A stretch of DNA of 55,019 bases from a virus. Under the pieces are notes generated by a model. That model worked only from the letters and a program-made list of their open reading frames with translations. It searched no databases and had not been told where the DNA came from. Shown here in pieces: positions 3,699 to 55,019 of the stretch. The position numbers and the translations under genes are program-made. Where the stretch lies: the IMG/VR virus record IMGVR_UViG_3300046323_000133, positions 1 to 55,019 of that record, one strand, 5' to 3'. How positions within the stretch are numbered: the stretch's first letter is position 1; each line of letters begins with the position of its first letter.

Positions 3699-4435
3699 AA
3701 AGCCTTATACGCTTCTACGCAAATTTCTCCCATACCAGGTATAGTATTGTCTGCAGAACCGTTGTTATAATAGTTTAACATGTTTGGAATAGCTTTATCA
3801 TACTTTTTAAACAGTTTGGTAGCTATGTAAGAAGATATAGTTGGTAATTTACGCTTAGCAACTTGTAAATACGTTAAAGTTTTAACATCGGTATCCCAAG
3901 TATTTACTTTGTTTAGCCAAACTACGTCTAGTATATGAGCTAAATCTATAACTGTTAATACTGGGTATAAAATCCATAAATTAAATCCTCTAATCCAAAG
4001 TCCAATTTCATTTATACCAGGAATGTCAGGAGTCTTTGAAATCCAGCCGTCGCTCTCTAGCGTATTAAAATGCATAAGCTTATTATACTGCCAGCGCGCA
4101 CGCCAAATTTGCCATAATAAATCAGTTCGGTTCCACATAATCATAGAAGCTTGTAACATAGCTGATTGGTCTCTACTAAATGTTTCGTAGCGAGAGTACC
4201 ACTTAGTTGGGTCTGGATGTCGAACGTAAAATCCTTGGGGCAGTTCAATGGGACGCAACTTACGAATAGTTTCGGTGTATCCTACTAGAGTATCAGTGCC
4301 TAGAGCTGATAAGCAGGTATATAGTACGCCACAATTATGAGCATTATCTCCGGAGTCTCCACTTAGTGTTTTTAACATGCCATAATTGTCAAAAGTACTT
4401 TCTATATTTTCTACTAGCTGTTGTATATTACTCAT
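3695..4435 (-). CDS. Trp-rich conserved phage protein, function unknown
   Basis: The 246-residue protein is rich in Trp and Tyr. It has a motif-like N-terminal part: GDSGDNAHN (about 26-34), then YVRHPDPTKWYSRYETFSRDQSAM (about 70-93). The pattern of conserved GD, HP and SRDQ residues and helical repeats resembles hypothetical proteins I associate with other short-tailed phages, but I cannot name the family. An alpha/alpha-barrel enzyme is possible. It sits between two nuclease genes with overlaps at both ends. Confidence 0.7.
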   Translation of the reverse strand: MSNIQQLVENIESTFDNYGMLKTLSGDSGDNAHNCGVLYTCLSALGTDTLVGYTETIRKLRPIELPQGFYVRHPDPTKWYSRYETFSRDQSAMLQASMIMWNRTDLLWQIWRARWQYNKLMHFNTLESDGWISKTPDIPGINEIGLWIRGFNLWILYPVLTVIDLAHILDVVWLNKVNTWDTDVKTLTYLQVAKRKLPTISSYIATKLFKKYDKAIPNMLNYYNNGSADNTIPGMGEICVEAYKAL

Positions 4436-4911
4436 TATGTCTCCTGTGTAAATAGTAAATAAACTAAATGCGCCTCTTCTTCTGTTCCGTATGAGCCTAA
4501 ATAGTTATTGATTCTAACACCTTTGACTTGTATTCCAGCTTGGGCTACGTACCTGTTATACTTTGTTTTTAAGGTTCCTGGAAGTTTGCCTTCTCTATGT
4601 ACTTTGTAATTTTGATTATTTTCTCTGCAAGTAGCTTCTCTTAAGTTTTCTATTCTATTATCAGACTTGTTACCATTTATATGGTCTATTATAGAAGGCA
4701 TATATCCGTATACAAAATACCAAGCCATTCTGTGAGCTTTGTAGCTCTTATTTTTAAATTTTAATATAGTGTAACCGCTTCTTTTTTGAAAAGAGCCTGC
4801 TTTTGTTCCTATTGTACACCTAGAGTATACGCTAAATTTTTTTTGAAAAAAGAAGTTTCCACAACTCTCATTATAGTGTAAGTATTCTTTTATGTCTTCT
4901 AGTCCACTCAT
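4435..4911 (-). CDS. HNH homing endonuclease with C-terminal AP2-like region
   Basis: The 158-residue protein has the HNH core SIIDHINGNKSDNRIENLREA (about residues 74-94: D-H-x-N-G, D-N-R, N-L-R) and a C-terminal RYVAQAGIQVKG...NYLGSYGTEEEAH segment like the AP2-type DNA-binding part of phage HNH enzymes. It is a free-standing homing endonuclease, probably selfish. Its stop overlaps the next ATG (TAATG), so it is fitted neatly into the operon. Confidence 0.85.
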   Translation of the reverse strand: MSGLEDIKEYLHYNESCGNFFFQKKFSVYSRCTIGTKAGSFQKRSGYTILKFKNKSYKAHRMAWYFVYGYMPSIIDHINGNKSDNRIENLREATCRENNQNYKVHREGKLPGTLKTKYNRYVAQAGIQVKGVRINNYLGSYGTEEEAHLVYLLFTQET

Positions 4912-7433: not shown

Positions 7434-7666
7434 TAGTTTGAACCTTTTTCTGCGGCTTCACATGCTTTTAATAACTGTTGTGCATCATATATTGCTTGTT
7501 CTGAAAGTCTTTTTATATCAAATAGTACTGTTTCAGGATTTTCATCTCTTACTCTAAGATAGTGTAATAAGAACTGCGTACTTATATATTCTAACTTTGA
7601 CATACCTCTCTCGATGCCCATGCCAGTGCGACCTGGAAAAGCTTGCTTAGTTTTATTGTTACTCAT
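7433..7666 (-). CDS. Hypothetical protein upstream of the LuxR-type gene
   Basis: The 77-residue protein has a basic N-terminus (MSNNKTKQAFPGRTGMGIERG) and a helical remainder. Its ATG overlaps the stop of the HNH gene (ATGA), and its stop overlaps the LuxR gene start, indicating coupled translation. Unrecognised. Confidence 0.65.
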   Translation of the reverse strand: MSNNKTKQAFPGRTGMGIERGMSKLEYISTQFLLHYLRVRDENPETVLFDIKRLSEQAIYDAQQLLKACEAAEKGSN

Positions 7667-8304
7667 GTTAAGTCTCCTTGTTTATTCGGTATAAAGTCTT
7701 TGTATTGTTTTAATATTTCTTTAGCATATTTAATTTTATCAATAACTCTTTGTCCTGCCGGTTGGTATGAAGACCATAGTTCCAGATTTTCCAGCCTATT
7801 ATCAGTCCTGTCTCCATTAAGATGATGTACTGTTTCATATTTTTTTAAAGCTCTGTCTAAATATCTCATCATTATCAATCTATGTTCAGGTATAGAATAC
7901 CATCTAGACTTTGTCCTTCCAAATCTATTTAAATCGGCATCGGTCATTTTAACAATTTTATATCCATTATTATCTATAGTGTATCTATTTAAAGCCCTTA
8001 GTCTATGGCTCAATATTTTTACACCATTTCTTTTTAATAACATCTTTACGGCATTATAACTTATTTTATATCTATTAGCTATTTGCAATATGGTCTTGTT
8101 GCTATTATATTGTTCTATAATTTGTCTTTTAAATCTATCTGCTACATAGTTTGTATTTCTTGGTACACCATGTTTGGATAATATTCTACTTATAGTATCT
8201 CTACATACTTTATACTTCTTTGCTATTTTTTGTTGTGACATAAAGTTTTTATAGTCTTTTACTATTTTTCTCTCTGTATTATAGCCTATACCCGCAATAA
8301 TCAC
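7663..8304 (-). CDS. HNH homing endonuclease with N-terminal helix-turn-helix repeats
   Basis: It starts with GTG at 8304 (AAGGAG 7 bases upstream) and has 213 residues. Two helix-turn-helix segments come first (QQKIAKKYKVCRDTISRILSKHG; LQIANRYKISYNAVKMLLKRNG), then the HNH core VHHLNGDRTDNRLENLEL (about 159-176). This is the usual build of a free-standing phage homing endonuclease. It is inserted between small operon genes with tight overlaps. Confidence 0.85.
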   Translation of the reverse strand: MIIAGIGYNTERKIVKDYKNFMSQQKIAKKYKVCRDTISRILSKHGVPRNTNYVADRFKRQIIEQYNSNKTILQIANRYKISYNAVKMLLKRNGVKILSHRLRALNRYTIDNNGYKIVKMTDADLNRFGRTKSRWYSIPEHRLIMMRYLDRALKKYETVHHLNGDRTDNRLENLELWSSYQPAGQRVIDKIKYAKEILKQYKDFIPNKQGDLT

Positions 8305-9272: not shown

Positions 9273-9974
9273 CTAATACTTCGCTTCTTTGTGTTTTAAA
9301 TTAACTGATAGTCCTAGGGGGCCTAACACGCTATTATAATACTCATGAGTACCTTTACAGTCTAAGCCTAGTAGGCCAAAGATTTCTAAGTCTTTAGGGC
9401 GTAGTTCGCCTTGAGGGCTTGTAACGTGCCAAAGCCAGCAGTGGTTTAGGATGCGTCTAATCTTGTTGTACGCCCAGTAATGGGACTTATAGAGCTGTAA
9501 CGGCTTAAAAGCGTTAGGTATTTCTACATTAGGATACAGTTTACAGAAGGCGGCTAAATCTCCAGTGTTCGCAAGGGCTGATATATCTCTGTATTCTGCT
9601 TGTTCTATGTAGCAGTTTAATAAAAATAAACAGTTAGTGTACGACTTACCGTACTTGTGCCTAGCTGCTCTTGAATTCATGTAGTAATTTATATAGGTTT
9701 GAACGTAACTGATAGCCTCTGAAGGGTCGTGCTGGTACTCAAAGGACTTAAAGTTCTTAGTGCCACGTAAAAAAGGCGAAGAAAGTCCAGGCAGACAGTC
9801 CGAAAAGGACTCAATGTCAGCATGTCCCGATTTTTGCAATTTAAGTTGCCACTCACGAAATATCTTATTAACTTGCTCAAGTGTGTATCCAGGGGGTATG
9901 TAGTACCCAGCGCCTTCATAGTGCGTTCTAGCTCCTGAAACGGTCGAATTAGGTTGTTTTTGTCTTTTAGCCAT
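9273..9974 (-). CDS. Unknown protein from a probable leaderless mRNA
   Basis: The 233-residue protein starts at 9974. It has a basic N-terminus (MAKRQKQPNSTVSGART), a Pro/Gly/Tyr stretch (GYYIPPGYT), and a central helical part rich in Tyr (YVQTYINYYMNSRAARHKYGKS). No family is recognised. A near-consensus sigma70 promoter (9981-10009) ends only 6 bases before the ATG and there is no ribosome-binding site, so the mRNA probably starts at or next to the ATG. Leaderless starts are typical of some phage repressors, and the place beside the divergent control region suggests a regulator or replication initiator. That role is inference. Confidence 0.75.
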   Translation of the reverse strand: MAKRQKQPNSTVSGARTHYEGAGYYIPPGYTLEQVNKIFREWQLKLQKSGHADIESFSDCLPGLSSPFLRGTKNFKSFEYQHDPSEAISYVQTYINYYMNSRAARHKYGKSYTNCLFLLNCYIEQAEYRDISALANTGDLAAFCKLYPNVEIPNAFKPLQLYKSHYWAYNKIRRILNHCWLWHVTSPQGELRPKDLEIFGLLGLDCKGTHEYYNSVLGPLGLSVNLKHKEAKY

Positions 9975-10646: not shown

Positions 10647-11195
10647 ATGAAAAGACTTATATTAGCTGCTTTTACAATATGGATATTAATAGTTATTATA
10701 GTATTAGACAAGGTTAACGAGACTTCTAAACTTGGGCCTATTAAAGACTATGTAGAAACTGTCAATGGAGACGGAACTGGTTCTATAGAATTTATAGATA
10801 AGGTAGCTCCAAAGTACAAGCTATTAAACAGATATATAGATGAGGCGGCTATAAAGCATAATGTAGACCCTAGCTTGCTTAACTGTATATTCCATGTAGA
10901 ATCTACGCATACTTTAGATGCTGTAAGTAAAACTGGAGACTATGGTATTGGTCAAATAAATATACGCTCTTGGAAGAAGTTTAGTCCAGATAGGCTATTA
11001 ACAGACCTCCAGTACTCCATAAACGCTTCAGCAGAGGTTCTAAGTTTCTATAAACAATTAGCAGCACAAGACGAGCCAACAACATGGCCTTGTCGCTATA
11101 ACGTTGGAGGCGCTTCATTAACTAAAGGAACTGTTGGGGCGCGCTGCGTCCATTACATGTCCAAATTGAACAGTTGTTTGCAATCTAAAAACTAA
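10647..11195 (+). CDS. Lytic transglycosylase (SLT) with N-terminal membrane anchor
   Basis: The 182-residue protein starts with a hydrophobic segment (LILAAFTIWILIVIIVLD, residues 4-21) that may be a membrane anchor or a signal-anchor-release signal. The SLT domain follows: HNVDPSLLNCIFHVESTH with catalytic Glu85, then GDYGIGQINI (98-106) and a C-terminal helix bundle containing YNVGG. It cleaves peptidoglycan glycan strands. As first gene of the early arm it is odd for a late endolysin; it may help DNA entry or be delayed by membrane anchoring. AAGGAG lies 5 bases before the ATG, inside the shared leader repeat. Confidence 0.9.
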   Translation: MKRLILAAFTIWILIVIIVLDKVNETSKLGPIKDYVETVNGDGTGSIEFIDKVAPKYKLLNRYIDEAAIKHNVDPSLLNCIFHVESTHTLDAVSKTGDYGIGQINIRSWKKFSPDRLLTDLQYSINASAEVLSFYKQLAAQDEPTTWPCRYNVGGASLTKGTVGARCVHYMSKLNSCLQSKN

Positions 11196-11859
11196 TTGTG
11201 CCGGACCTACTGGCGCAGTGTGCCACTTTAAAAAACGAAGTGGCGCACCACTATCCTTAATGATATCATATACTTGGAAGCCCGTGCGCCAGTGTGCCAC
11301 TAAAAAGACACTTCAGACGCCATTTTCGTATATGGCTATGTGCCCAAATCTACCACAATAGAACTGACACTCAGCTCGCATATACTCGTTTTAAGAAAAA
11401 ATATTTTCCGGATTGTCAAAACACTGGCACACTGGCACACTTTGATTATAACTGTTATATAATATATAAAAGAGAATATAGAAGACTTAATAGTACTAAA
11501 AGTCCTAAATACCTAATATTGTTAACTAAATACCAAATTACTAAAAGTGGCGCAATAGTGGCGCACGGACTGGCACACTGGCACACGGAAGGGCTTAAAG
11601 TGCGCCAGCGACTCCAAATAGTGTGCCGGTCCATTAGTTTAGTGCGACAATAAAATAGTGACGTTTTAGGCTGACACTCGACTACTTCTTAAACAGTTTA
11701 CCCGACCCAAATAGAGTATAAATGAACTAAACTGGCCTGCAAAGTGCATCAAGTCTTATACTTACTTAAACACTGCATAAACTTTACTTATGTTAAGTAT
11801 TAAAGAAGCTTAATCGGGTCTACAAAGATTAACCGATTTACAAACTAAAAAGGACTAAC
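11196..11859. other. Non-coding region; candidate replication origin
   Basis: About 660 bases without a convincing gene. At least eleven copies of the heptamer TGGCRCA (or its complement) occur between 11211 and 11607, in two GC-rich groups flanking an AT-rich core (about 11441-11540). This is the classic build of an iteron origin: protein-binding repeats next to an unwinding element. From 11640 to 11859 only AT-rich leader sequence is seen. Confidence 0.65.
11211..11607. repeat. Iteron cluster, heptamer TGGCRCA
   Basis: Forward copies start at 11211, 11241, 11425, 11433, 11548, 11559, 11571 and 11579; reverse copies (TGYGCCA) start at 11219, 11285, 11293 and 11601. Three pairs are spaced 8 bases apart (11285/11293, 11425/11433, 11571/11579) and 11211/11219 form an inverted pair. 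An 11-bp stem with one mismatch can form from 11218 to 11248. Near-copies (TGTGCCG) lie at 11197 and 11622. Confidence 0.85.
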
Positions 11860-12081
11860 ATGATTACAAAACAGTTCTACATCAATCAGTTCACAGGTTA
11901 CGCACAAGAAGTAACTGGGTTGTCCTTAGACGAGTTGGAGTCCTTAGTTGGCCGTTACAAGCGTAATAGTATCAGAGAAGGACAATTGAGAGGCGAGCTG
12001 CTTATTTTTGTGGACAATTCAATTAAAATCCGTCATGCTTTTACTAAGAAAGTCCTTTGGACAGGAGAGATTTATGAGTAA
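11860..12081 (+). CDS. Hypothetical protein downstream of the putative origin
   Basis: The 73-residue protein has an AAAGGA site before its ATG. It has a helical start (FYINQFTGYAQEVTGLSLDELESLVGRYKRN) and a beta-like end. It overlaps the following gene by 8 bases. Position next to the iterons makes a replication or control role possible; not recognised. Confidence 0.7.
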   Translation: MITKQFYINQFTGYAQEVTGLSLDELESLVGRYKRNSIREGQLRGELLIFVDNSIKIRHAFTKKVLWTGEIYE

Positions 12082-14438: not shown

Positions 14439-15041
14439 ATGATTATAAATGCCACTTTAATAAGTTCACTAAATGCTTGTTCAGACCGATATGATAATTA
14501 CGTATTACATTATGGTACAACAGACTATGACGTCGATACTTTTTTAGACTTAGACAATATTACTTATCAAGATAAAATATGGGTGTTAAGACGCATTATG
14601 AACGCCACACAAGCTAGAATTTTTGCAATTCTATGTGCGGATAGCGTTTTGCCTATTTTTGAATCTAAGTATCCTAATGATTACAGAGTAAGAAACTGTC
14701 TTAACTTCTTAAAATCTATAAAAGATTTAGGAAACTTAACAGAAGAAGAAAAGACTGAGCTAAAATTTCAAAGAAAAGCTGCTGCTGCTACTTACTCTGC
14801 TGATGCTGCTACTTACTCTGCTGCTGCTGCTTATGCTGATGCTGCTACTTACTCTGCTGCTGCTGCTGCTACTTACTCTGCTGCTGATGCTGCTACTTAC
14901 TCTGCTGCTGCTGCTGCTACTTACTCTGCTGCTGCTGCTGCTACTTACTCTGCTGCTGCTGCTTATGCTGCTTATGCTGATGCTAAAATACAGCAACAAA
15001 ATTTAAACTTAGAATACTTAAAACAAGCAATGAGTATTTAA
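14439..15041 (+). CDS. Protein with Ala/Thr/Tyr/Ser tandem repeats
   Basis: The 200-residue protein has GGAGG before its ATG. Residues 1-113 form a helical domain. Residues 114-182 are a repetitive run of units such as AAATYSA and AAAYADA, encoded by GCT-rich tandem repeats (14778-14984). The last residues are helical. A similar host or phage family with A-x-A-Y repeats is known to me only vaguely. It stands immediately before the primase (its stop overlaps that ATG by design: TAAATG). Confidence 0.75.
   Translation: MIINATLISSLNACSDRYDNYVLHYGTTDYDVDTFLDLDNITYQDKIWVLRRIMNATQARIFAILCADSVLPIFESKYPNDYRVRNCLNFLKSIKDLGNLTEEEKTELKFQRKAAAATYSADAATYSAAAAYADAATYSAAAAATYSAADAATYSAAAAATYSAAAAATYSAAAAYAAYADAKIQQQNLNLEYLKQAMSI
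14778..14984 (+). repeat. GCT-rich coding tandem repeat
   Basis: About 207 bases are built from variants of a 21-base unit (four GCT codons, then ACTTACTCT) with GAT and TAT codon substitutions and unit-length changes. It is in frame throughout and is likely to vary in copy number by slippage. Confidence 0.85.
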
Positions 15042-15872
15042 ATGTACAAAACACAACTAGAACACATATTCCAAAATGAACAGTTTATATTTACTGGGGA
15101 CGAATATTACTTACTACCTATAGACCGTTCAGCTTTCTTCTGCATTAATCCTGTTAAAAATTTAGACAATCGTCAATTAGAAAACTTATCAAACTTACAG
15201 AACTTCCTCATAGAATTTGACGAAGCATCTTATGAACAACAGTTCAAATCTATTGCGCAAATAGAAGCTTCTGGATTAAATATTGCTAGTGCAGTATTTT
15301 CAGGTTCTAAAAGTATACACCTAATATTTAGCATGGCCGAAACTCTTCAATTAGATTATAAGACAGCTTGGTTAGCCCTAGCCTCAGAAGTTCGCAGTAT
15401 AACAGGACTAACAGCAGACGCACAATGTAAAAATGCAAATAGGCTTAGCAGACTTGCAGGATTTGTGCGCCCAGATACTGGAAAAGTTCAAGAGCTGCTG
15501 CACCTTGGAGGCTTCATCAAGAATGATAAACTAATGGAATTAGTGGACCGGCATAAAATTAAGCACGCTGTAACTCAAACAACAGTTAGCCAAGACCCTA
15601 CCATGAGCGTTGAGAAGTTTGAATTAATACTAATAAAGAGGCAAAACGGACTCTACTCAAAAATAGCTAGAGTAGACGAATGGGCAGGAAGTGTAGGAAT
15701 GTATAAAGAACTATTTAACATTACCTGCTGGGCTATAGACGCTACAGGAGTTCCAGAAAGTACCTTCAAACAGTTTGCGCAAAATAAAATATTTCCTGCG
15801 CTATTAGAAGCCGGTTACCCAATAAACAAACTTGACAAGCCTATTGATAATGCTTACACTTATAAAACATAA
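15042..15872 (+). CDS. AEP-type DNA primase
   Basis: The 276-residue protein shows archaeo-eukaryotic primase features: IEFDE (57-61, metal-binding acidic motif) and SGSKSIHLIF (87-96) with the s-x-H motif His93, then NANRLSRLAGFVRPDTG. It would make primers for replication. The next gene is an SF3 helicase, the usual partner in primase-helicase modules of this type. An internal copy of the GGACCGG motif is at 15545-15558. Confidence 0.8.
   Translation: MYKTQLEHIFQNEQFIFTGDEYYLLPIDRSAFFCINPVKNLDNRQLENLSNLQNFLIEFDEASYEQQFKSIAQIEASGLNIASAVFSGSKSIHLIFSMAETLQLDYKTAWLALASEVRSITGLTADAQCKNANRLSRLAGFVRPDTGKVQELLHLGGFIKNDKLMELVDRHKIKHAVTQTTVSQDPTMSVEKFELILIKRQNGLYSKIARVDEWAGSVGMYKELFNITCWAIDATGVPESTFKQFAQNKIFPALLEAGYPINKLDKPIDNAYTYKT
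15545..15558 (+). promoter_or_regulatory. GGACCGGCATAAAA motif inside the primase gene
   Basis: An exact copy of the recurrent motif, encoding D-R-H-K in this frame. It could be an internal promoter for the helicase or a coincidence of coding. Confidence 0.35.
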
Positions 15873-15884
15873 ACAAGGGGCAAC

Positions 15885-17291
15885 ATGTACACTTCAGATT
15901 TTATACTAGACGAATTAATAGTCGGATGTAGAAACGGCTTAAAATTTGACAAAATAGTACATAATTTTATAAATAATGACAAAAAGCCTGTACCACACGA
16001 CATGGTTGATAAAGTTAAAAAAATGTTTGAAGAAGAGAAAAAGCGCTTTAATAATTTTAACTACACACAACAAGTATTAGACTTAGAATTTATATTAGAT
16101 ATTACTACTGGAGAGTACCATTTAGTAGACATATTTACTAAAGAAACTACTCCTATTAAAATTGCAGCTGTCGAAAACGCTTTTAATAAAGGAGCATTTC
16201 AGCGTATAAAAGAAAGAAAACTTTACAGCGTATTCCTAGGGTGGAACCCAGATGAAAATGTTTTCAAATACAAGGAGTCTTTAGTGGAGTCTATAAATTT
16301 ATACAAACCTGCAAAGTGGCAACTACCATATTTCTTTGAAGGTGTAGAGGTTCCAAATACCCCTATGCCTAAAGTATATGTAGATTTTTTCAAACACTTA
16401 ACAGGAAATGAACTGTCTTTAGATTACCTAATGGCTTTTACAGCTGCGACGGTACAAAGAGGGTTTAAGCCGCAGAATTATTGCGTACTTACTGGAATAC
16501 AAGGAACTGGTAAAGGCGTTTATTTCCAAATCATGCAGCAGTTATTAGACCCAGCCAACACAGGATATACAGAAGCTGTTAAAATAATTGATTCAAAATT
16601 TAATGCTTTTGCTAGAAACAAAAAGTTGATTTTTATAGACGAATTAAAGATTAAAAGCCCTGGAGAAGAAGATATATTAAAACCGTTTGTAAATGATACA
16701 ATTGCTATTGAAGCTAAAGGAGTAGATTCTCTATCAGTTAAGAATTATGCATCTCTTTTAATAGCATCTAATGACGTTGGAGAAATGAGAATTAGCACCG
16801 AAGACAGACGATTTTGCTTTGTGGACCCAGGAAATATAAAATTAGCAGACTATGTAAACAACTTAAAAAATGGACATAATGTTTCCAGCTACATTAAAAA
16901 AGTTTTATTAGACCCAGAAAATATAAAACAATTTGGAGAATTTTTACTTAATTATAAGTACGATGAAAACTTACTAATTGATATGCTAGAATCAGATACT
17001 CGTAGAACTTTAAAAGAAGAAACAGCATCTGACTGGGTAACCTCTTTACTTGCTAATGTGTGTCCTAAAAATAAGGGTAAAAAGCTTAAATTAGGCGATG
17101 TTCAAGAACAGCTTATGGAAGTTACCAATTCTAGTAAAGTACCAGGACGACGTCAATGGGTTAAAATATCTAAGGACTACCCTGGATACTTTGAAGTTAT
17201 TAGAATTAAAGAAACTAACGGAGAACAAAATTATTACATACAATTTGCAACTACAGAAAATATGCCCACTTACCTAAAGGAATCAAAATGA
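15885..17291 (+). CDS. SF3-type replicative helicase (D5/DUF5906-like)
   Basis: The 468-residue protein has Walker A GIQGTGKG (about 204-211), Walker B LIFIDEL (about 247-253), a motif C region SLLIASND (about 284-291) and an arginine-finger-like EDRRFCFVD. It should unwind DNA at the replication fork, likely as a hexamer, with the upstream primase. AAGGGG precedes the ATG. The stop overlaps the exonuclease start by 4 bases. Confidence 0.85.
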   Translation: MYTSDFILDELIVGCRNGLKFDKIVHNFINNDKKPVPHDMVDKVKKMFEEEKKRFNNFNYTQQVLDLEFILDITTGEYHLVDIFTKETTPIKIAAVENAFNKGAFQRIKERKLYSVFLGWNPDENVFKYKESLVESINLYKPAKWQLPYFFEGVEVPNTPMPKVYVDFFKHLTGNELSLDYLMAFTAATVQRGFKPQNYCVLTGIQGTGKGVYFQIMQQLLDPANTGYTEAVKIIDSKFNAFARNKKLIFIDELKIKSPGEEDILKPFVNDTIAIEAKGVDSLSVKNYASLLIASNDVGEMRISTEDRRFCFVDPGNIKLADYVNNLKNGHNVSSYIKKVLLDPENIKQFGEFLLNYKYDENLLIDMLESDTRRTLKEETASDWVTSLLANVCPKNKGKKLKLGDVQEQLMEVTNSSKVPGRRQWVKISKDYPGYFEVIRIKETNGEQNYYIQFATTENMPTYLKESK

Positions 17292-20211: not shown

Positions 20212-20784
20212 TTGTCTATTTCAGATGAAAAATGGGAACAAATAAGAGCTAAATGGGCAACTCAAACTGAAAAAAATACCGAAAAAGAATTTAAAAAAGA
20301 TTTAAAAAGAGGACATCAAGGAGAACATACTTTCTTTCAACTGTTTCAATCCTCAGTTACACATCTAGACGGACGTAATGCAGATTTTGAAATCAATAAA
20401 ACTGGCGAAACAATTGAGCTGAAGACAGATTATTACGACCATAGTCTAACTGAAAATTTCTTCATGGAGCGCTACTCCTACGACGATAAACCAGGAGGAC
20501 CTTGGCAGTCGGTTTCAAAGAAAATAGATTATTACATTTACTACTACCCGTCTCATAATGAGCTGTATATATTTAATGCAGAACAGTTAGTGAGACGTTT
20601 AGACCGTATCATGAAAAATGAAAAGCTTGTAAGTGTTAAAAATAAAGGCTACACTACAAGAGGTTATAAAGTTAAGCGCTCTTTAATTGAAGAGTTGTGT
20701 TTAAATTTTGAAGACATTGGACTAGTAGAAAGTAAAGGTAAAGATGATAGTAAGACAAAAAGAACATATAAACCTAGTACTTAA
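20212..20784 (+). CDS. PD-(D/E)XK nuclease, Holliday-junction-resolvase-like
   Basis: It starts with TTG, supported by AGGAG six bases upstream. The 190-residue protein has GHQGEHTFFQLF (Glu38), RNADFEI (Asp58) and IELKTD (Glu69-x-Lys71), the PD-(D/E)XK core. It may resolve branched replication or recombination products. It overlaps the polymerase gene by 41 bases, implying coupled expression. Confidence 0.75.
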   Translation: MSISDEKWEQIRAKWATQTEKNTEKEFKKDLKRGHQGEHTFFQLFQSSVTHLDGRNADFEINKTGETIELKTDYYDHSLTENFFMERYSYDDKPGGPWQSVSKKIDYYIYYYPSHNELYIFNAEQLVRRLDRIMKNEKLVSVKNKGYTTRGYKVKRSLIEELCLNFEDIGLVESKGKDDSKTKRTYKPST

Positions 20785-22981
20785 TATGTTGAAAAGTTCT
20801 TTATATTGGTCTTGGGATATCGAGTCCACAGGGCTTAATGTAAGAAAAGACAAAACTATAGGATTTGGTTCTTGTAATCCTTTAAATCTCAATCAATACT
20901 TTTATATAATTACTAAAGAATGGGTAGATAATCAGCTAGTAGAACTACTTACTTTAGAAGATGTAAAACCAGTTTTAGACGCTCTTAAAACCAAAAGATT
21001 AATAACATTCAATGGTTCATACGATACGCGATTAACATACCATTATCATAAGTCTAATTTAATAGATTCTATATATTGTGACGTTATGTTGCTAGTACAC
21101 ACTTGTGATGAAAATAGAATATCATATAAAATGAAAGACATTGCAGAAGACGCTTTTGGCAGTAGTGCTAAAGATTCTCAAAAAGATATGTTGGAGTCTA
21201 TAAAAGCTAATGGAGGAACAGATAAAGAATATTATAAAGCCGATTCTAATTTAATGGCATTGTACGGCATTCAAGATAATATATTAACTTGTAAACTGTT
21301 TAATCACTATAATCGCATACTAAAAGCTGAAGGCCTTGAAAAATTCTTTTATGAAGATGAAGTTATGCCTCTTTACAGACTTGTAACCATACCTATGGAG
21401 TTAAAGGGAGTACCTCTAGATTTACCTTTAATGCATCAATGCTTAACAGATATTAGGACAGACATGGACAAGCTACATACAGACATACAAGCAGCTATAG
21501 AGCCGCATTTAACTGATTTTAAAGCCTGGTACTTAAATAAAGAATATCCTGGAATACAGTTATCTGGGCAGTTTTTAGAAGCTTTATGCGCCATTATTGC
21601 GCCATCAAACTGGCCTAAAACTAAAGCCGGTACCCATAGTTTCTCAAAGACCGCGTTTAAAAAGCTGCCAGAGCTATTAGAGACAGATTTGTGGGCATAT
21701 CAGCAAGGAAATAAGCGCATAAGTAAAGAGCTAGCTGATAGTGTACGTTTAAAGCTGTTTCAAGATTCCGGAGAACAGTTCATGTTTAACATACTGTCTA
21801 AGCATCATTTAAAGAAGTTATTTTTTGAAGAGTTGGGAGAAACTCCAAGTTCTACAACAGATAAAGGGAATCCTCAAGTAGAAGATGATTTTTTAGAACA
21901 AATGGCACAAAAATATGAATGGGTAAAGTGGCTACGTACTTACAACAAATTAACTAAGATTAAATCTACATATATTGAACGCTTTTTAGATAAGCAAGAA
22001 GATGGTATTTTTTACCCTTCATACTTTATGCATAAAACAACATCGGGCAGATTTTCTGGAGATTTACAACAATTACCCCGTATTAAAACTCTAGAAGATG
22101 AAAATGACCCGATTTTTTTAAAACATAACAATAACATTAGAAATTTTTTCATTTCAGGAGAGGGTAAGAAATTAGTAGACGCCGATTACAGTTCACTAGA
22201 AGTTGTTGTGTTCGCAGATGATGCACAGGATGAGGCCCTACTAGACGTTATCAATAAAGGATATGACTTGTATTCACAAGTTGCTATTAACGTTCATGGA
22301 TTAACGGAGTATTCAGCAGATAAAAAAGCTGCTAACTTTTTAAAGAAGCATAAGCCAGAATTACGTCAACAAGCTAAGGCATTCGCTCTAGGATTTAGAT
22401 ATAATTTGCAACCATATAAACTTAGTCAAGATTTAGGAATAAGTGAGGCTGAAGCTACACGCCTACAAAAAGGATACTTCAAATCATATCCTAGACTAAA
22501 AGAACGTATGGATGAAATTATTGAATCGGCTAAAAAGAATGGGTATGTAGTTTCTAAAGCTGGTAGAGTTAGAAGATTAACAAACTTGGTGGACCGGTAT
22601 AAAAAATATGGTGAGGTGTTGTTTAACTCTTTAGACCTTTGGAAGGAATACCACGAGAGACACAATGATTATAATCGCATGAAGCAGATTGCAAAAGAGT
22701 GTAGAGGGGCTGTTAATAACAGTTTAAATTTCCCAATTCAATCGTTTGCGGCGTCTATAGTCAGTAGAGCTTCTATTGAGATTGCAAAAGAGTTAAAGAG
22801 TAGGGGACTACAGTCTTATATATGCATGAGCACTCACGATGAGCTGTGTTTATTAAGCCCAGACAATGAGGTGGCAGAAGCTTCTTTAATTTTACGAGAC
22901 AAAATGGAGAATACAACAAAATTATCGGTACCTTTAGAGGCTGAGCCAATAGTAGGAGTGAGATATGGAGATGTTAAGTAA
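20744..22981 (+). CDS. Family A DNA polymerase with 3'-5' exonuclease
   Basis: The 745-residue protein has exonuclease motifs (WDIESTG with Asp25 and Glu27; TFNGSYD; LYGIQDN) and polymerase motifs A (DADYSSLE, Asp479), B (RQQAKAFALGFRYN, about 540-553) and C (STHDELC, Asp699/Glu700). Size and layout are like T7 DNA polymerase. The start at 20744 overlaps the nuclease gene; a later ATG at 20786 lacks a ribosome-binding site. A GGACCGGTATAAAA motif copy lies within it at 22591. It is the replicative polymerase. Confidence 0.95.
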   Translation: MIVRQKEHINLVLNMLKSSLYWSWDIESTGLNVRKDKTIGFGSCNPLNLNQYFYIITKEWVDNQLVELLTLEDVKPVLDALKTKRLITFNGSYDTRLTYHYHKSNLIDSIYCDVMLLVHTCDENRISYKMKDIAEDAFGSSAKDSQKDMLESIKANGGTDKEYYKADSNLMALYGIQDNILTCKLFNHYNRILKAEGLEKFFYEDEVMPLYRLVTIPMELKGVPLDLPLMHQCLTDIRTDMDKLHTDIQAAIEPHLTDFKAWYLNKEYPGIQLSGQFLEALCAIIAPSNWPKTKAGTHSFSKTAFKKLPELLETDLWAYQQGNKRISKELADSVRLKLFQDSGEQFMFNILSKHHLKKLFFEELGETPSSTTDKGNPQVEDDFLEQMAQKYEWVKWLRTYNKLTKIKSTYIERFLDKQEDGIFYPSYFMHKTTSGRFSGDLQQLPRIKTLEDENDPIFLKHNNNIRNFFISGEGKKLVDADYSSLEVVVFADDAQDEALLDVINKGYDLYSQVAINVHGLTEYSADKKAANFLKKHKPELRQQAKAFALGFRYNLQPYKLSQDLGISEAEATRLQKGYFKSYPRLKERMDEIIESAKKNGYVVSKAGRVRRLTNLVDRYKKYGEVLFNSLDLWKEYHERHNDYNRMKQIAKECRGAVNNSLNFPIQSFAASIVSRASIEIAKELKSRGLQSYICMSTHDELCLLSPDNEVAEASLILRDKMENTTKLSVPLEAEPIVGVRYGDVK
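22591..22604 (+). promoter_or_regulatory. GGACCGGTATAAAA motif inside the polymerase gene
   Basis: A copy of the recurrent motif (C to T at one place) encoding D-R-Y-K. It may be an internal promoter for the downstream HNH gene, or coincidence. Confidence 0.3.
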
Positions 22982-30907: not shown

Positions 30908-33793
30908 TTAGACTTCAACAATAGTTATGTAATTGAATTTATCATCAGCAAACAAAGACGCCGCAGACCCTGAGTTCACTCGAATATCAAAATATTCTCC
31001 AGCTAAAAGACTAACAGATGTAGCCACAGCAGAAGTAGCATCAACACCGACTTCATTTATAACTTTATGAAATACTCCATTTTTATATAAATCTAAACGT
31101 CTAGATGCAGTTGAAACTCTACTTGCTCCCGTGATTGATACAGTCATAGCTCTAGGAGCTGTGAATTTCCAAGAAGCTCCAGTTGTTACGGCTCCATGAG
31201 TGTCATCGTCTTTTGTTGCATAATTTAAAATTACTACACCAGTACCTAGTGATTGCCCTGCACCTGTTTTGTATATAGCTCTAATTTTTTCACTAGCAGC
31301 AATAGTCTGAGGTGCCATTAACTTAGAAACATTAAAAAATGTTGCAATAGCATCGTTAGCCACTCCTAAAGCTCCACCACTATTTTGAAATCCAAAAACT
31401 TCTAAATAATCACCTACATTCAAATCAACTCTGAATCCTACAAACGGCTGTGCATTAATCCCAGAAGGGACATAGCTTCTACCTTCAAAAATTGACACTC
31501 CATTTTTAAGTACTCTTACTAGTCCCGTATATACTCCGGATGTGCCAAATTGTAAGCTAGCCTCTCCAAAGTAAGTACCCGTACTAACACAAACTACTCT
31601 GCTATTTACAGAATCCCAGACAAGACCCTTTGATTGAATAGTTGAATCGAAAGTTATTTTTGTAAGTGTGGCATTTGTTAGAGATTGTGATGCTCCTACT
31701 TTACCCATTCTCAAAGTTAACTCTCGACCGTCATAATTATCAGATACTCTAACACTTGAAGATTGACCTTGTATTGGAATCCCATAAGCTGTGAACGAAA
31801 CTTCTACAGATGCAGAAGCGACCTGACTACCATTTAATCTTGTCAAACCAAGGCCGGAACCGCTTGCTGCGTTAGAAAAATTAACTACAGTACTATTTTC
31901 ATTTAAAATAGAATGAAGTATTTGTCCAGATGTTCCATTATATGCCAATGTTCCATAGTTTCTATAACCAGGTAAACCCTTTATACTATCTGTCCTAAAT
32001 CCATTCGGAAGACTTATTTCTGCAATTGTTGCCGTAGTTGTACCCGCTGTAAACCGACCTTGAATATCAATCGAATCGCCATTTCTTCTGTATAAAAATT
32101 TAGAAGTAGTTATTGTTCCAAAGCCAGCTGTTGTTGGTGTATACTCTATCCAATCAGTAACCGGAGTCCCATATACATAAACTTGAGGACTAAGAAGAAT
32201 ATTGTCTAGTTTAATACTATAATCATCAACAAGAGACAGTCTATTATGCAAAATAAATCTTACAGAAGTACAGTTAGAATCAAATTGAACAGTGGCCTCA
32301 TACACATCACTAGTAGTTGACGAATTGGATAACAATTTAATATTAGAAGGTTCAACTAATTTAGAGTTAGTAATATCATAAAAAGTACAAATTACACTAC
32401 CATTATCAGGAGAAGCTCCGTTAAATCCTGGAAAAAAACCTCCTCCAGTATTGTCTACCAGGTATGCAAAAGAAATTTTTAGGGATTTTGCTCGGTATGC
32501 TAAGTCTAAAGGAATATTATCTATAGCCCACCCATTACCCTGAGCACTACCAAACGGTTTAGTCAATACATATGATTTAGTTCCAGCTAAAGGGCTTACA
32601 GAACTAATTGAAGTAGTGACAATAGGACTTCCACCAATACCATCTATAGGATATTGTACAGCACCGTCAGCATAAGGAACGAATATAGAAGAGTTAGTAG
32701 AGTCCGCGCTTCCGTTAGATATAAGATTAATAACACCTGAACTCGGAAGACTAGTCCAAGATAAATCTCCTGAAGTAGTAGAACTTAAAATTTGCCCATC
32801 TGCAGCAGGTACAGCTTCAGGCAATACATAAGCTTGAGTAGCAGCTGTGTTACTAGCTGAAAAAGAAATTTCGTTTCCAAGTGAATTAGCCCAAGATAAC
32901 AGCTTATTAGCACCGATTGTTAGTTTATTTCCAGTCCAACTAGCAATTGTACCATTTGTTGTAAAATCCGTTAGAGCACCATTGGTTAATACTAACAAAT
33001 TAGCAGCTTGATTTTGTATTTTTTGAATATTAAGAGTAGTCCAACGTCTTAATGTAGTACCTAAAGACTTAGAAACGTCAGTATCTGGGACTAAAGGCTG
33101 ATTTATACTTGTAGCAGTTAAATTTCCTAAGTCCGTATTAGCTTTTAAAGCTACTGCATCAAATACTGCATTTTGAGAAGGAGCAACATCTATAACTCCA
33201 TCTACTATAGCATCTGAAACCGTCGCAGCTTTTGCACGCGCATTAGTATAATATAAGTTTGTTACGCCTTCAGACAAGTCATCTGTAGATTTAGCTGAAA
33301 AAGCAGTATTAAATCTTGTAGCCGTATAGTACAACTTAGAACCTTCTGCAATATCATCAGTATCTAAGGTTACAGCTCCAGTTAACCCGTTAACAGAAAC
33401 TACTTCATTTGAATTAATAGATTTTTGCCAAACAGTGCCATTATACACTACCCAGTCTCCAATATTAAAACTTATAGAACCAGAACCTAAATTTTGCGAC
33501 CCAGCAACAATAACCTCATAAACATCTCCAGTATTACCAGTTCCATCAGCAAGTGTAGGCGTATTAGTAGAAGCGTTATATTGTCCTTGATATTGCATAA
33601 CTGAATTTGGCAAATTAGCTATAGGAACTTTTCCACCATTATCAAGAGGAGCATATCCATTTGCAGACCCTTTTTCAGATAGCAGTTGATAATCATTCAA
33701 ATCTGCAGACTCTGCCAAATCGGTAACATCTACTATTGTATCAAATTGTCCAGTAATCGGATTAAATATAAGTTTCTTTTTTTCTGTTGCCAT
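30908..33793 (-). CDS. Large tail fibre/spike with carbohydrate-binding-like and C1q-like domains
   Basis: The 961-residue protein starts with a virion-attachment-type segment (LIFNPITGQFDTIVDV) and fibre repeats (SKLYYTATRFNTAFSAKSTDDLSEGVTNLYYTNARA, about 150-190), a middle jelly-roll-like module (about 355-535), and two C-terminal beta domains (about 685-825 and 835-961) that look like C1q/TNF-type trimeric heads (FVGFRVDLNVGDYLEVF; SLLAGEYFDIRVNSGS). It is probably a main receptor-binding protein. Confidence 0.8.
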   Translation of the reverse strand: MATEKKKLIFNPITGQFDTIVDVTDLAESADLNDYQLLSEKGSANGYAPLDNGGKVPIANLPNSVMQYQGQYNASTNTPTLADGTGNTGDVYEVIVAGSQNLGSGSISFNIGDWVVYNGTVWQKSINSNEVVSVNGLTGAVTLDTDDIAEGSKLYYTATRFNTAFSAKSTDDLSEGVTNLYYTNARAKAATVSDAIVDGVIDVAPSQNAVFDAVALKANTDLGNLTATSINQPLVPDTDVSKSLGTTLRRWTTLNIQKIQNQAANLLVLTNGALTDFTTNGTIASWTGNKLTIGANKLLSWANSLGNEISFSASNTAATQAYVLPEAVPAADGQILSSTTSGDLSWTSLPSSGVINLISNGSADSTNSSIFVPYADGAVQYPIDGIGGSPIVTTSISSVSPLAGTKSYVLTKPFGSAQGNGWAIDNIPLDLAYRAKSLKISFAYLVDNTGGGFFPGFNGASPDNGSVICTFYDITNSKLVEPSNIKLLSNSSTTSDVYEATVQFDSNCTSVRFILHNRLSLVDDYSIKLDNILLSPQVYVYGTPVTDWIEYTPTTAGFGTITTSKFLYRRNGDSIDIQGRFTAGTTTATIAEISLPNGFRTDSIKGLPGYRNYGTLAYNGTSGQILHSILNENSTVVNFSNAASGSGLGLTRLNGSQVASASVEVSFTAYGIPIQGQSSSVRVSDNYDGRELTLRMGKVGASQSLTNATLTKITFDSTIQSKGLVWDSVNSRVVCVSTGTYFGEASLQFGTSGVYTGLVRVLKNGVSIFEGRSYVPSGINAQPFVGFRVDLNVGDYLEVFGFQNSGGALGVANDAIATFFNVSKLMAPQTIAASEKIRAIYKTGAGQSLGTGVVILNYATKDDDTHGAVTTGASWKFTAPRAMTVSITGASRVSTASRRLDLYKNGVFHKVINEVGVDATSAVATSVSLLAGEYFDIRVNSGSAASLFADDKFNYITIVEV

Positions 33794-49848: not shown

Positions 49849-51690
49849 TTAAACCGCTGGTAATAAATCTGAAACGGGCATTTGGGCTGGTTGTCCAGTA
49901 GGGTCTGCTGTTATAGCCCCGTCCATTTGCTGTAAAGCTGGAGTTACAGGAGCTAAACCTTCAGGAGGAGTACTAGCTATAACCAATAGCTCATTAGCAT
50001 CTGACATCCATTGTCTAAACATTTCTAAAAGCTCTTCTGGAGCTGATTGCGATTTATACATTAGATATGCTTGTTGCATCTTCTCTATCCCATATTTTAG
50101 ATTTTGAAACGGTTCTGGACTCTGATATTCCATTTTGTCAACCATAAGCTCTATCTGTCTTTCAATATCTTCTACTCCTGAATTTTGCATGTTATAAAAA
50201 GATTTTAAATCAGGATAGTCTAAAAGCTTCATAGCATCTACTTTATTAATAAAACCTGCTTGTACCATTTCTTGTACTTCAGCCATTCTTGCACTTGGGG
50301 TACTTGATAAAGCACTAGTAGGAAATATTTGCATCATGTATTGGTCTTTTTCCATGTTTACATCTTCCCATTTAATAGTCCTAAGAAAATCAGAACCTGG
50401 GACTTTAACAGAATAGTTTTTAGTTTCTTCAGCTATGTCTTTTGCGTAATCAATCATTATTTCACAAGCATCTAAAAAGGTTTGCTCATAGCGCTTAGCA
50501 CAGGCCATAAAACGCTCAGTTTCAATTTCATTGTAGGTTCTCATAGCTTTACCGCTATTTAAACCGACAGGCTTTTGGGATTGTGCGCTTAGTTGGCTCA
50601 GTCCTATAATTTCGTAAGACCGGCTATACAATCTATCTAATTGAGAAAATAGTTCTGCAGGAATACTTCCTAAAGTGCTCCACTCAGGTTTAGTACCAGC
50701 ATACTTAATTATACCACCTATTTTATTATTTAAATGAGTAGACATGATTTTAGAACTTGCTTCTACCATAAGTTTAGGAACAGATACTAAATGCATAGAA
50801 ACTTGAATAGTTCTTAACAGTTTATTCATTTCTGTTTGAATTCCAGTCAACTGTTCTGAGATTCCTTGTCCCCAAAATCCTAAAGGCCGTTCGTTCCAGC
50901 GACTAAATACAAATGGAAAATAGTCTTTACACCATTCTTCAGAAAATAAAGTTTCATTGTTTATGCATATAGTATGAATGCCATCTTTTGATTCTGGAGA
51001 ACTTCTTAAGTGCCATGATTCTACTACTAGTAACATGTCACCATTTTTAGTGCTATTATCAGTATTCTCATTGTTCATATCTACTGCAGCGTCTATAGAG
51101 CCCTTATACTTAGGGTAGCAAGCCTTTAGAACATCTTTATTAATCCATTTAGACTGATGTAATTGTCTTGGAGCTCCGTATATAGACTCATTATTATCAA
51201 CTGTTAACTCATCAATAAACACTCGTTCTGCACATATCTTATTATCTTTTATATAAATCTTTAAAGCGCCTGTTCCAAATATACAAGCATCAGAAAATAT
51301 TCTAGGCATAAGCTCGTACAACTTAGTGCTGTAGAATTGACCCTCAGCAAATTTTGTAAGCTTTTCTGCTTTTCTTTTTAAGCTAAAATCTCCGTCGTCC
51401 GTTAAAAAGTACGGCTTAGGCTTATTTTTAGTTATTTTAGAAACAGCTGTATCAATCATAGATTGTATGACATTTAAAGTAACCCTGTTTTGAATAGAGT
51501 AGCTGCTCTCTGCTTGAGTATTGTTAAAATCAGCAATACCGTTATATTCGTAATTGCCGTATAGTCTCATATTTCTCAAATTATCTGTTTGGGTACCTAT
51601 TTGGCGTGCTTTTAACATTTTAAGATATGGAAATACCGAATTGTGAATTTCGGACTTTTTCTTCCACCAATAATAATGTGCATTATTCAT
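49849..51690 (-). CDS. Portal protein
   Basis: The 613-residue protein opens WWKKKSEIHNSVFPYLKMLKARQIG, has IQSMIDTAVSKITKNKPKPYFLTDDGDFSLKRKAEKLTKFAEGQF (about 75-120) and FGTGALKIYI, LNSGKAMRTYNEIETERFMACAKRYEQTFLDACEIM (about 371-406), all usual for podovirus portals. Gene order is terminase, small gene, portal, scaffold, capsid. The C-terminal part is rich in Gln and Pro. Confidence 0.9.
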   Translation of the reverse strand: MNNAHYYWWKKKSEIHNSVFPYLKMLKARQIGTQTDNLRNMRLYGNYEYNGIADFNNTQAESSYSIQNRVTLNVIQSMIDTAVSKITKNKPKPYFLTDDGDFSLKRKAEKLTKFAEGQFYSTKLYELMPRIFSDACIFGTGALKIYIKDNKICAERVFIDELTVDNNESIYGAPRQLHQSKWINKDVLKACYPKYKGSIDAAVDMNNENTDNSTKNGDMLLVVESWHLRSSPESKDGIHTICINNETLFSEEWCKDYFPFVFSRWNERPLGFWGQGISEQLTGIQTEMNKLLRTIQVSMHLVSVPKLMVEASSKIMSTHLNNKIGGIIKYAGTKPEWSTLGSIPAELFSQLDRLYSRSYEIIGLSQLSAQSQKPVGLNSGKAMRTYNEIETERFMACAKRYEQTFLDACEIMIDYAKDIAEETKNYSVKVPGSDFLRTIKWEDVNMEKDQYMMQIFPTSALSSTPSARMAEVQEMVQAGFINKVDAMKLLDYPDLKSFYNMQNSGVEDIERQIELMVDKMEYQSPEPFQNLKYGIEKMQQAYLMYKSQSAPEELLEMFRQWMSDANELLVIASTPPEGLAPVTPALQQMDGAITADPTGQPAQMPVSDLLPAV

Positions 51691-51963: not shown

Positions 51964-54492
51964 TTAGTCGTCCCAGTTTTCAACTCCAGAATCAAATATG
52001 TAGTCCATGTCCTGGTCTGTTATATTATCGTCTTCGTTAAAGTTCTTTTTGGCCTCTAAAGCCTCTATATCTCTTTGTTCTAATAAATCCATGTATTCTT
52101 GAGTATTGGTTTTAGGAGCTCTGATAGAACCTTCAGCTTCAATATAATGCTTACAATGCCTCCATGCGTACAAAACGGCATCTCCAATATCTGTATGATA
52201 AATATCGGAAACTTTTAACTTTGTAGGGTCCGAACGGTCCCATACTACTAAACTAGTATCTTCTTCAAACCTGGAGCCTTTGTATACTTTCATACGAGCT
52301 GTTCTTAAGTCATCATTCATTAGCTCAATAAACTCAAATTTTCTATGTTTTTCTGCTACTTCCATGTTTAAGCCGTGACGCTGTCTAACCTCTTCTTGGA
52401 TTTTTTTACCAAGACCTCCACCATCCATTACCATTTTTACAGGCATGTACTTGTCGTTTAAAGCTTTAATTTTAGCTATTAATACAGAAATGGTTTGCTT
52501 ATCCTGTATATCTTCTTCAATTAAATACACATTGCCATCTTGATAGTTATATCCTAATACAGCTATAGCGTCTGAATCATTCCATCCAATATCTACTCCA
52601 AATATATAGACCATGCGACCTGCTGGAGGAGCTGTAAATAGATTTTTCATAGGACTAAATTTGAATACTAGGCTATTTTCATCTTTTTCCCAGTCGCCAT
52701 ATGTCTCTCTTCTGTATGAAGGGTCATTTTCAGTAATTCCCTTTAGTTCTCTTTCTTCTTTTAGTCGAACATTTAAATCTTTAGCTGGTAAACTAAATTT
52801 ACCTTCTGGATTGTGCATATGAGGATTGTTAAAAGCATTCCATTTAAAATTAGGAATCATAGGACTTGTGCAATATTCATAAAAGGGGCCTGCTGGAACT
52901 GGTCCAGGAGTACCTGTTAATCCTAATTCTCCATTTAAATCTCGTAGTCCAGGTAACAAAATATCATTAATTAGTGTACGTAAATATGGTCTAAAAGACT
53001 GGGCCTCATCTACATAAGCTTTTCTCAGCTTTAAACCTCTGTACTTTTCAATTTCAGCTTCATCCTTTGCTCCACCACATCGTATTGTAGATTTAGTATC
53101 ATTGAAAAACATTTCTAAACGGGTCTCGTCAGTCTTAACGTTTATGCGCCACTTATCTGCTACTCTTTTTAACTCATCCCAAATAATAGAACGAGCGCTT
53201 CTTGATGTTAAAGTTAAATATAAACATAAAACATTAGATTCGGACATACAAGTATGTACAAAATCTGCTATAATTGTATTAGTATTATGAGTTATGATAC
53301 CGTTAGACAGCATATACAAATGAGTATCGTTATCCACTTCTAAATCATAGCATTCAGCTAAATATGGCTTACTTATATTAGTAAGCCCGTATCCTTGTTT
53401 TGATTTATTTCTAGATTCCAGAGACCTGTATTCTTTTTTAAATTTTTTTCTATCACATACTATATACGGGTTCAGTCGTTCCAGTAAATAGCAGGTATCT
53501 AGAGAGTTAGAAGTCCTTATGCTACATACCGGTCCATTTTTATACTTAGGACGATTATCTTTCATTAAGATACAATCTATTTGGAAAAGACAACTTATTA
53601 ACTCTTTGCAAATTTCTAAAACAGAAAGGGCTTGCATACTTATTTCAAACGACACTCTTTTCTTGTCATATCTCACACAGCCGTCTGTGTCCAATAAACC
53701 AGCTAAAAATTGCATTTGACTTTCTCTGTTCCAAGAAAATATTACATCCTTGTCTACAATTTTCTCGTGGGCATATTTATTATGTAACCAATCGCTGTAG
53801 TATGGGATATCAAAATGTTTTATATTTTTAAAGCTATATGTAAAGTTATACTGAGAGTTTTTATGCGCTGTGCCTAAAACAGTCTCTAATTTACTTATGA
53901 TGGAATAGTCATCAGAGCTGATACTGATGAAATGCTCTCTGCTACAGCCGTCTCCAATAAGAGCACCTAGTGCGTATGCGAAGGGCTCATTCTTACCACT
54001 CTTAGAGAATAGTTCGTGCTTTTTTATGGCAATAGAAGACTCTCCAATATTAGTGAGTTTTTCCAAAGTAGTTACTTTTTCAACACTGTTTTTATCTAAA
54101 AATAGAAAAGGATGTTGTTTTGTAGCAGTTACTAAAACCTTATTACCTCTTTTTATATCTACGACCGACTTTAGTCCTTTGTATACGTTATCTAATACTT
54201 TAGTTTCTGAAATGCTTCCATCTTTATTGTATCCATACACAATATCTCCAATATTAACATTTTCTATCGCTATAGAACCTCTAGAAGTTGCTACTAATGA
54301 CCCTTTTATTAGACATTTACCTGCTCTACGTGAAGTACAAGCGGACTTTATAATCTTTTTTTCTAAGGCAAAAGCCAACTGTTCTGGGAAGCAAAATTCT
54401 TCAATTTTAAACTGCAAAGCCGCTGCAGCCCTTTCGGACTCAGCGGCACGTTTTTTTAATTCTTTTAATAGTTTGGACTTAGATACTGCCAT
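51964..54492 (-). CDS. terL: Terminase large subunit interrupted by an intein
   Basis: The full frame is 842 residues. Without the intein (residues 60-403) it is 498. The ATPase shows Walker A split as SRRAGK | TNTIIADF, Walker B KAYVDEAQS (491-499) and a coupling motif LTGTPGP. The nuclease has FGVDIGWND (Asp634), KMVMDGGG (Asp690) and YHTDIGDAV (Asp768, Asp771). It cuts and packages DNA at the portal. The C-terminus is acidic. The intein must be spliced out to give a working P-loop. Confidence 0.95.
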   Translation of the reverse strand: MAVSKSKLLKELKKRAAESERAAAALQFKIEEFCFPEQLAFALEKKIIKSACTSRRAGKCLIKGSLVATSRGSIAIENVNIGDIVYGYNKDGSISETKVLDNVYKGLKSVVDIKRGNKVLVTATKQHPFLFLDKNSVEKVTTLEKLTNIGESSIAIKKHELFSKSGKNEPFAYALGALIGDGCSREHFISISSDDYSIISKLETVLGTAHKNSQYNFTYSFKNIKHFDIPYYSDWLHNKYAHEKIVDKDVIFSWNRESQMQFLAGLLDTDGCVRYDKKRVSFEISMQALSVLEICKELISCLFQIDCILMKDNRPKYKNGPVCSIRTSNSLDTCYLLERLNPYIVCDRKKFKKEYRSLESRNKSKQGYGLTNISKPYLAECYDLEVDNDTHLYMLSNGIITHNTNTIIADFVHTCMSESNVLCLYLTLTSRSARSIIWDELKRVADKWRINVKTDETRLEMFFNDTKSTIRCGGAKDEAEIEKYRGLKLRKAYVDEAQSFRPYLRTLINDILLPGLRDLNGELGLTGTPGPVPAGPFYEYCTSPMIPNFKWNAFNNPHMHNPEGKFSLPAKDLNVRLKEERELKGITENDPSYRRETYGDWEKDENSLVFKFSPMKNLFTAPPAGRMVYIFGVDIGWNDSDAIAVLGYNYQDGNVYLIEEDIQDKQTISVLIAKIKALNDKYMPVKMVMDGGGLGKKIQEEVRQRHGLNMEVAEKHRKFEFIELMNDDLRTARMKVYKGSRFEEDTSLVVWDRSDPTKLKVSDIYHTDIGDAVLYAWRHCKHYIEAEGSIRAPKTNTQEYMDLLEQRDIEALEAKKNFNEDDNITDQDMDYIFDSGVENWDD
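53284..54315 (-). mobile_element. Intein with LAGLIDADG homing endonuclease in terL
   Basis: The 344-residue intein begins with Cys60 (CLIKGSLVATSRGSIAIENV) and ends IITHN with Asn403 before Thr404, the first residue of the C-extein. Splicing blocks are all there: N-block with GDIVYGYN; VTATKQHPFL (T-x-x-H); YDLEVDNDTHLYMLSNGIITHN at the end. Two LAGLIDADG motifs, LGALIGDG (174-182) and LAGLLDTDG (263-271), mark an active-type homing endonuclease. It sits between Lys and Thr of the Walker A loop, a typical intein site. Confidence 0.95.
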
Positions 54493-54731: not shown

Positions 54732-55019
54732 TTCAAAACTCCTCTGTTCATTTTCTTTTTATACTCTTGATATTTTAGCTTATTTTTAGGGTCAACTACT
54801 TGTCCCATTTTGATTAGAGGACAATTATTAAACTTTACTTGAATCTCAAACATTCCCATTAGTAAAAATGACTCAATAGAACTGCTATTTAGAAGAGCAG
54901 GAGAACAAGAAATACTTACAATCTCGTCAGCAGCTTTTTCTTTTATAGAATTTATACCGTTAATCCATAATTCATCTTTTACTTTAGATTTGTAAGATTC
55001 TAGAGATATAGACATTCTA
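54728..55019 (-). CDS. Exported ClpP/SppA-like protease (C-terminal part; starts at 588 after circular closure)
   Basis: This is the 3' end of the gene entered as 1-588: bases 54893-55019 repeat 1-127. The unique part is 54728-54892 (55 codons with the stop). It contains the C-terminal tail AADEIVSISCSPALLNSSS and a helical Lys-rich end (NKLKYQEYKKKMNRG). A separate start inside the repeat (ATG at 55015) would be an artefact of the window's edge. Confidence 0.85.
   Translation of the reverse strand, partial: RMSISLESYKSKVKDELWINGINSIKEKAADEIVSISCSPALLNSSSIESFLLMGMFEIQVKFNNCPLIKMGQVVDPKNKLKYQEYKKKMNRGVLK
54893..55019. repeat. Terminal direct repeat (contig closure), right copy
   Basis: Identical to 1-127; see the left copy. 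Confidence 0.95.

Follow-up and report, generated by a model that had tools for sequence, protein, structure and literature searches.

A cluster of short repeated sites at positions 11196–11660 of an uncultured tailed phage genome is very probably the place where this phage starts copying its DNA. The genome is virus record IMGVR_UViG_3300046323_000133, which was analysed over its whole length of 55,019 bp (hereafter, the window), and its source is a tailed phage of an uncultured podovirus family. We favor an origin because this iteron field occupies a conserved position, its iterons have changed in concert while keeping their spacing, the DNA that it encloses has the lowest stability in the genome, and genes for a primase and an SF3 helicase accompany it. 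On this evidence, which is drawn from sequence, the iteron and unwinding-element origin proposed by an earlier, sequence-only reading is well supported. Moreover, we are quite confident that the field is the replication origin of the phage and that the SF3 helicase is most likely its initiator, acting through a predicted C-terminal winged-helix-like domain.

The iteron field and its AT-rich core

The field is located between a transglycosylase gene (10647–11195) and a gene starting at 11860, in a part of the window where the leftward genes begin at about 10.36 kb and the rightward ones extend from 10.65 to 24.4 kb. Twelve exact copies of TGGCRCA/TGYGCCA start at 11211, 11219, 11241, 11285, 11293, 11425, 11433, 11548, 11559, 11571, 11579 and 11601, which bears out the earlier count of at least twelve, and four near-copies with one mismatch (11197, 11339, 11349 and 11622) extend the array to 11197–11628. 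The whole genome contains 21 exact sites, and at the density found elsewhere in it, 0.08 sites would be expected within the 465 bp of the field (Poisson P ~8e-23); dinucleotide shuffles lead one to expect 5.8 sites genome-wide. The word GGCACAC is present seven times in the field, a number reached in one of 1000 dinucleotide shuffles of the field. Such a cluster of short repeated sites is a defining trait of iteron-type origins, as is an adjacent AT-rich unwinding element, and both are found here.

The sites are also ordered. The three direct pairs with an 8-bp period that had been described are indeed present (11285/11293, 11425/11433 and 11571/11579), and 11211/11219 form an inverted pair at the same 8-bp distance. 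The left module (11241–11299) has sites starting at 11241, 11285 and 11293, spaced by 44 and then 8 bp, and the right group (11548–11628) comprises the sites at 11548, 11559, 11571, 11579 and 11601 together with the near-copy at 11622. Between them, the direct pair on the plus strand at 11425–11439 aligns with a pair reading TGGTATAG TGGTATAA in the closely collinear relative G001, whose field is orthologous. The sole sizeable plus-strand frame inside the field is a GTG frame of 119 codons, open at 11294–11653. Neither Pfam nor PHROG gave a match for this frame, and G001 has nothing corresponding to it; the field is therefore counted as non-coding, as the earlier reading had held.

The AT-rich core (11441–11544) is probably a DNA unwinding element. 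In a nearest-neighbor stability scan, no other 100-bp stretch anywhere in the 55-kb genome is as unstable as 11445–11544, and in a 60-bp scan of the window only 0.02% of segments are less stable than the field core. The GC fraction is about 0.52–0.56 on the sides of the field versus 0.22 in the core, so the earlier description of GC-rich groups around an AT-rich core holds in general, but not for the pair 11425/11433, which lies at the left edge of the core. The potential for the strong hairpin reported with it is real (single-stranded DNA fold z = -4.8) and is explained by motif copies that face each other. GC skew, which had been put forward as a check, has its minimum near the field and its maximum at the strand switch at about 24.3 kb; because it tracks gene orientation, it is not usable as an origin indicator and gives no pointer to replication.

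Just downstream of the field, GCATAAACTTTACTTATG occurs at 11775–11792 and, identical and at the same place, at 51062 of G001, as a single copy in each genome. It is possibly the promoter of the gene at 11860.

Fields in related phages

A nucleotide search of a collection of 50,697 phage records returned no match to the window, and its portal and major head proteins likewise have no match there, which is why the group is called uncultured, a term that holds for that collection. Relatives were found among other records. Searching with the helicase yielded G001 (IMGVR_UViG_3300049924_000170, 55,571 bp), which is collinear with the window along almost all of its length; the majority of the matched proteins are 45–90% identical. 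The major head protein led to 125 contigs, several of them near-complete and collinear, and an exonuclease query added more, while scans with the transglycosylase, the helicase alignment and P0003 (the protein of 9273–9974) produced no further relatives.

Several further features were noted elsewhere in the window, some of them by comparison with G001. The terminase large subunit gene (51964–54492, minus strand) carries an insert of about 344 residues (residues 60–403) that is missing from G001 and matches LAGLIDADG (PF14528, E 3e-7); it is probably an intein with a homing endonuclease. The gene at 14439–15041 contains an AGCAGC-rich repeat that is far more expanded in G001 (about 54950–55571 and 1–500), where the contig break falls in this gene. 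The product of 30908–33793 (minus strand), 961 residues long, aligns over no more than its first 346 residues and may be a tail protein whose tip has been swapped. Genes resembling HNH endonucleases are present at 4435–4911 and 7663–8304 (minus strand), the latter with helix-turn-helix matches as well.

In G001 the field occupies the same place and contains 14 TGGTRYA/TRYACCA sites within 50590–50955. Three relatives more distant than G001 carry clear or probable fields. In G006, about eight RTGTACR sites are found within a gap (52947–53562), and this field lies 44 bp upstream of the helicase gene; in G034 (L134), seven TGACCA/TGGTCA sites are found between the transglycosylase and primase genes, a marginal case whose count is reached in 4–8% of its own shuffles; and in G035 (L135), eight AGCCGCA/TGCGGCT sites form a field that lies upstream of the primase gene at a distance of about 5 bp. 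The fields of G006 and G035 thus adjoin the primase/helicase genes, about 8 kb from the transglycosylase gene, whereas the primase gene is 3.4 kb from the field in the window and 5.2 kb in G001 and is adjacent in neither. Each field has a core of low stability: in G034 no 60-bp stretch of the genome is less stable than the core, and the 60-bp cores rank in the lowest 0.3% (G001), 0.5% (G006) and 1.2% (G035). An unbiased scan of intergenic gaps ranked the field first genome-wide in G001, G006 and G034; in the window, it fell outside the scored gaps owing to a spurious frame placed over it by a simple gene caller, and that of G035 was not scored either.

Four near-complete genomes (G016, G017, G037 and G038) have no field recognized by these scans, and the field is therefore either not universal or diverged beyond their reach. 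Suggestive repeats, which we do not count as fields, are a 9-bp tandem AAAAAGCTA in G003, direct repeats of AAATCTGTTTAC ahead of the helicase gene in G005, and four copies of TGTACGT ahead of the primase gene in G009. Other repeats from around the same position were rejected as coding, namely those at 282–1214 of G005 (a collagen-like protein), those at 1–600 and elsewhere in G006 (pentapeptide repeats), and those of L139 and L143. In the relatives L099 (282–1214) and L102 (1637–2338 and 3162–3911), genes of the early region code for collagen-like and pentapeptide-repeat proteins, and their DNA repeats are very regular.

Conservation of the heptamer array in relatives had been named as a check on the origin, and the outcome is divided: the word TGGCRCA is not kept, but the array is, and its word changes as a set. 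When the window and G001 fields were aligned with MAFFT, nine full sites were paired, in which TGG and the final A are kept at 36 of 36 positions, while C has become T at position 4 in nine of nine sites and at position 6 in eight of nine (TGGCRCA to TGGTRYA), counts that are somewhat flattered by the tendency of MAFFT to align similar words. Positions outside the sites are 52% identical. Site order and spacing agree as well, with the succession of site, 44 bp, site, 8 bp, site common to both fields. Spacings of 44/9 and, mirrored, 9/43 appear in G035, so that a distance of 43–45 bp beside one of 8–9 bp recurs; random placement gives such triples with P of 0.03, 0.0003 and 0.0008. Concerted change at the same base positions implies a sequence-specific binder, and, as judged from the aligned sites, it is the trace that would be expected if one DNA-binding protein had altered its specificity.

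The candidate initiator and rival explanations

Genes for a primase and an SF3 helicase accompany every field, in the genome or at the locus (in G006 the helicase was identified by DUF5906). In the window, all on the plus strand, the primase-like protein (PHROG 2597, 15042–15872), which is present in every field-bearing relative, is followed by the helicase (15885–17291) and, in the same replication cluster, by a family A DNA polymerase (20744–22981). The helicase belongs to the SF3 (DUF5906/D5-like) family, with E 3.4e-20 and 73.2 bits against PF19263 (cutoff 27.6), and matches the C-terminal region (CTR) of the NrS-1 primase by sequence. An AlphaFold2 model built from 12 sequences (pLDDT 85) gave predicted fold matches to the NrS-1 CTR (Z 25.1) and to the SaPI5 primase-helicase over residues 15–441 (Z 18.9). 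Modelled alone, the C-terminal 103 residues (pLDDT 78) match mostly winged-helix proteins, among them Rok, LmrR, SarX and Fur, at Z values of 6 to 8.5, which are middling; Foldseek alone returned nothing for this domain at E ≤ 0.001. The putative iteron-binding part is this predicted winged-helix-like domain (17025–17264, residues ~381–460). Between the window and G001, identity is 76% over residues 111–356, a segment containing the ATPase core, but 59% over residues 381–460, and this faster change might hint at a DNA-reading part.

The helicase probably opens the origin and is the best candidate for the initiator. The initiator would bind the heptamers as an ordered array, with tandem pairs 8–9 bp apart and modules about 44 bp apart, and, once bound on both sides of the core, would melt the AT-rich DNA. 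The helicase would then be loaded at the melted core, after which primase and polymerase could start. If the initiator is the phage's own SF3 helicase, it would read the sites through its C-terminal winged-helix-like domain, a proposal modelled on the published SaPI Rep and Cch2.

It is also conceivable that the field is an origin but that its iterons are bound by the primase, by P0003 or by an unrecognized small early protein, in which case the helicase would only be recruited. Lambda and RepA-type replicons divide the roles of initiator and helicase between separate proteins, and P0003, encoded close to the field, shares 69% identity with its G001 counterpart and has a near-invariant C-terminus; it had no match among solved structures. 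Nevertheless, we regard this arrangement as rather unlikely. P0003 and the 73-residue protein of 11860–12081, the two binders that the sequence-only reading had proposed, have no homologue in the field-bearing G034 or G035 and are unsupported on that ground, whereas primase and SF3 helicase are found with every field. An array of operator sites for a phage regulator of early genes, with the AT-rich core as promoter region, is more improbable still. A repressor would also fit the concerted change, and the conserved element at 11775 just downstream of the field could be a promoter. However, no promoter excess was found in the field region and no recognizable repressor among the genes searched, it would be unusual for an operator to comprise 12 or more sites, arranged in fixed modules about the genome's least stable DNA, and the fields of G006 and G035 directly precede primase/helicase genes.

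Short arrays of 7-base repeats stand beside the terminal repeats of T7, and the window has T7-like head genes and 7-base words, which raises the question of whether the field marks a physical genome end or a concatemer junction. The ends of the record itself are probably not true termini: 127 bp at 1–127 are identical to 54893–55019, and since ends of the same or similar length (123 or 127 bp) are identical in several related records, this repeat probably arose as an overlap in the assembly of a circular map and not as a biological terminal repeat. Yet a long distance separates the field from the terminase gene, fields in relatives are next to primase/helicase genes, and its tandem pairs of mixed orientation and very AT-rich core are unlike a terminal repeat, so we hold this reading to be highly improbable. 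Repeat arrays also occur in attP arms and in parS, and the low folded energy of the field might suggest a structured RNA. We give hardly any credence to an attachment site, a partition centromere or an RNA, as no integrase, recombinase or ParA/ParB family was detected among the proteins searched, Rfam and tRNA scans were both empty, and the fold is explained by the facing motif copies.

Known replicons and the re-keyed iterons

Lambda O and P4 alpha act at phage or satellite origins that, like the field, combine iterons with AT-rich DNA. Unlike the helicase of the window, lambda O is a different kind of initiator, and P4 alpha has primase and helicase fused in one protein, with P4 crr as a second cis region.

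PICIs always have an AT-rich region with an iteron set on either side, a layout that, according to the authors, no other known bacterial replicon shares (PMC6092414). The field shows this layout, with short iterons grouped on both sides of an AT-rich, probable melting region as in PICI/SaPI origins (PMC6092414, PMC7581432), and the earlier suggestion that it represents a novel type of origin is accordingly unsupported. In these elements, as in the window, the origin is linked to a primase and a self-loading helicase, for which SaPI5 provides the fold match given above, and the iteron word varies from element to element. However, the PICI/SaPI origin is directly 3′ of the rep gene, whereas the field is upstream of the primase/helicase genes in the window, G001, G006, G034 and G035, and for this reason it is not a PICI origin by position. 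Moreover, PICIs are satellites without a full set of virion genes, while the window phage has its own structural genes (including portal, major head, terminase and head protease) and a family A polymerase, and its iterons differ in their mixed orientation and 8–9/44-bp geometry.

The SaPI Rep reads its iterons with its C-terminal domain, and so does Cch2 of SCCmec, a D5-like helicase whose C-terminal domain binds short direct repeats (PMC7581432); SCCmec has only three 5-nt iterons, located downstream of cch2, versus 12 or more heptamers in the window. In PLE satellites, the DNA-binding domain of the initiator and the iterons covary between lineages and must be cognate (PMC7145576, PMC8263062), as the field would lead one to expect here, but the PLE initiator is a RepA_N protein without a helicase and its origin has three semi-palindromic repeats of about 30 bp. 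The closest solved relative of the window helicase is the NrS-1 PrimPol/helicase (6k9c, 6lrb), in which, unlike in the window, the primase is fused to the helicase; the available part of that source describes an 8-nt recognition sequence that is present twice in each genome, and no iteron field (PMC7102993).

Hence, the layout of the probable origin is a known one, and the novelty lies in finding it, with re-keyed iterons, in an uncultured podovirus family. One possibility, which we offer tentatively and consider doubtful, is that the initiator helicase and the iterons have been re-keyed repeatedly (five lineages and words, one layout), perhaps blocking cross-use by co-infecting phages or satellites, and that the replicon shares ancestry with that of PICI/SaPI5. 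Because two main positions of every aligned iteron and a limited number of C-terminal helicase residues differ between the window and G001, specificity could be tested by a domain swap. The occurrence of a PICI-like layout with a SaPI5-like helicase in a family of complete phages bears on the origin of such satellite replicons. The five field maps propose replication origins for a phage group without a cultured member in the collection searched, in which each lineage has a different word at the same place, as if a lock had been re-keyed together with the protein that starts replication.
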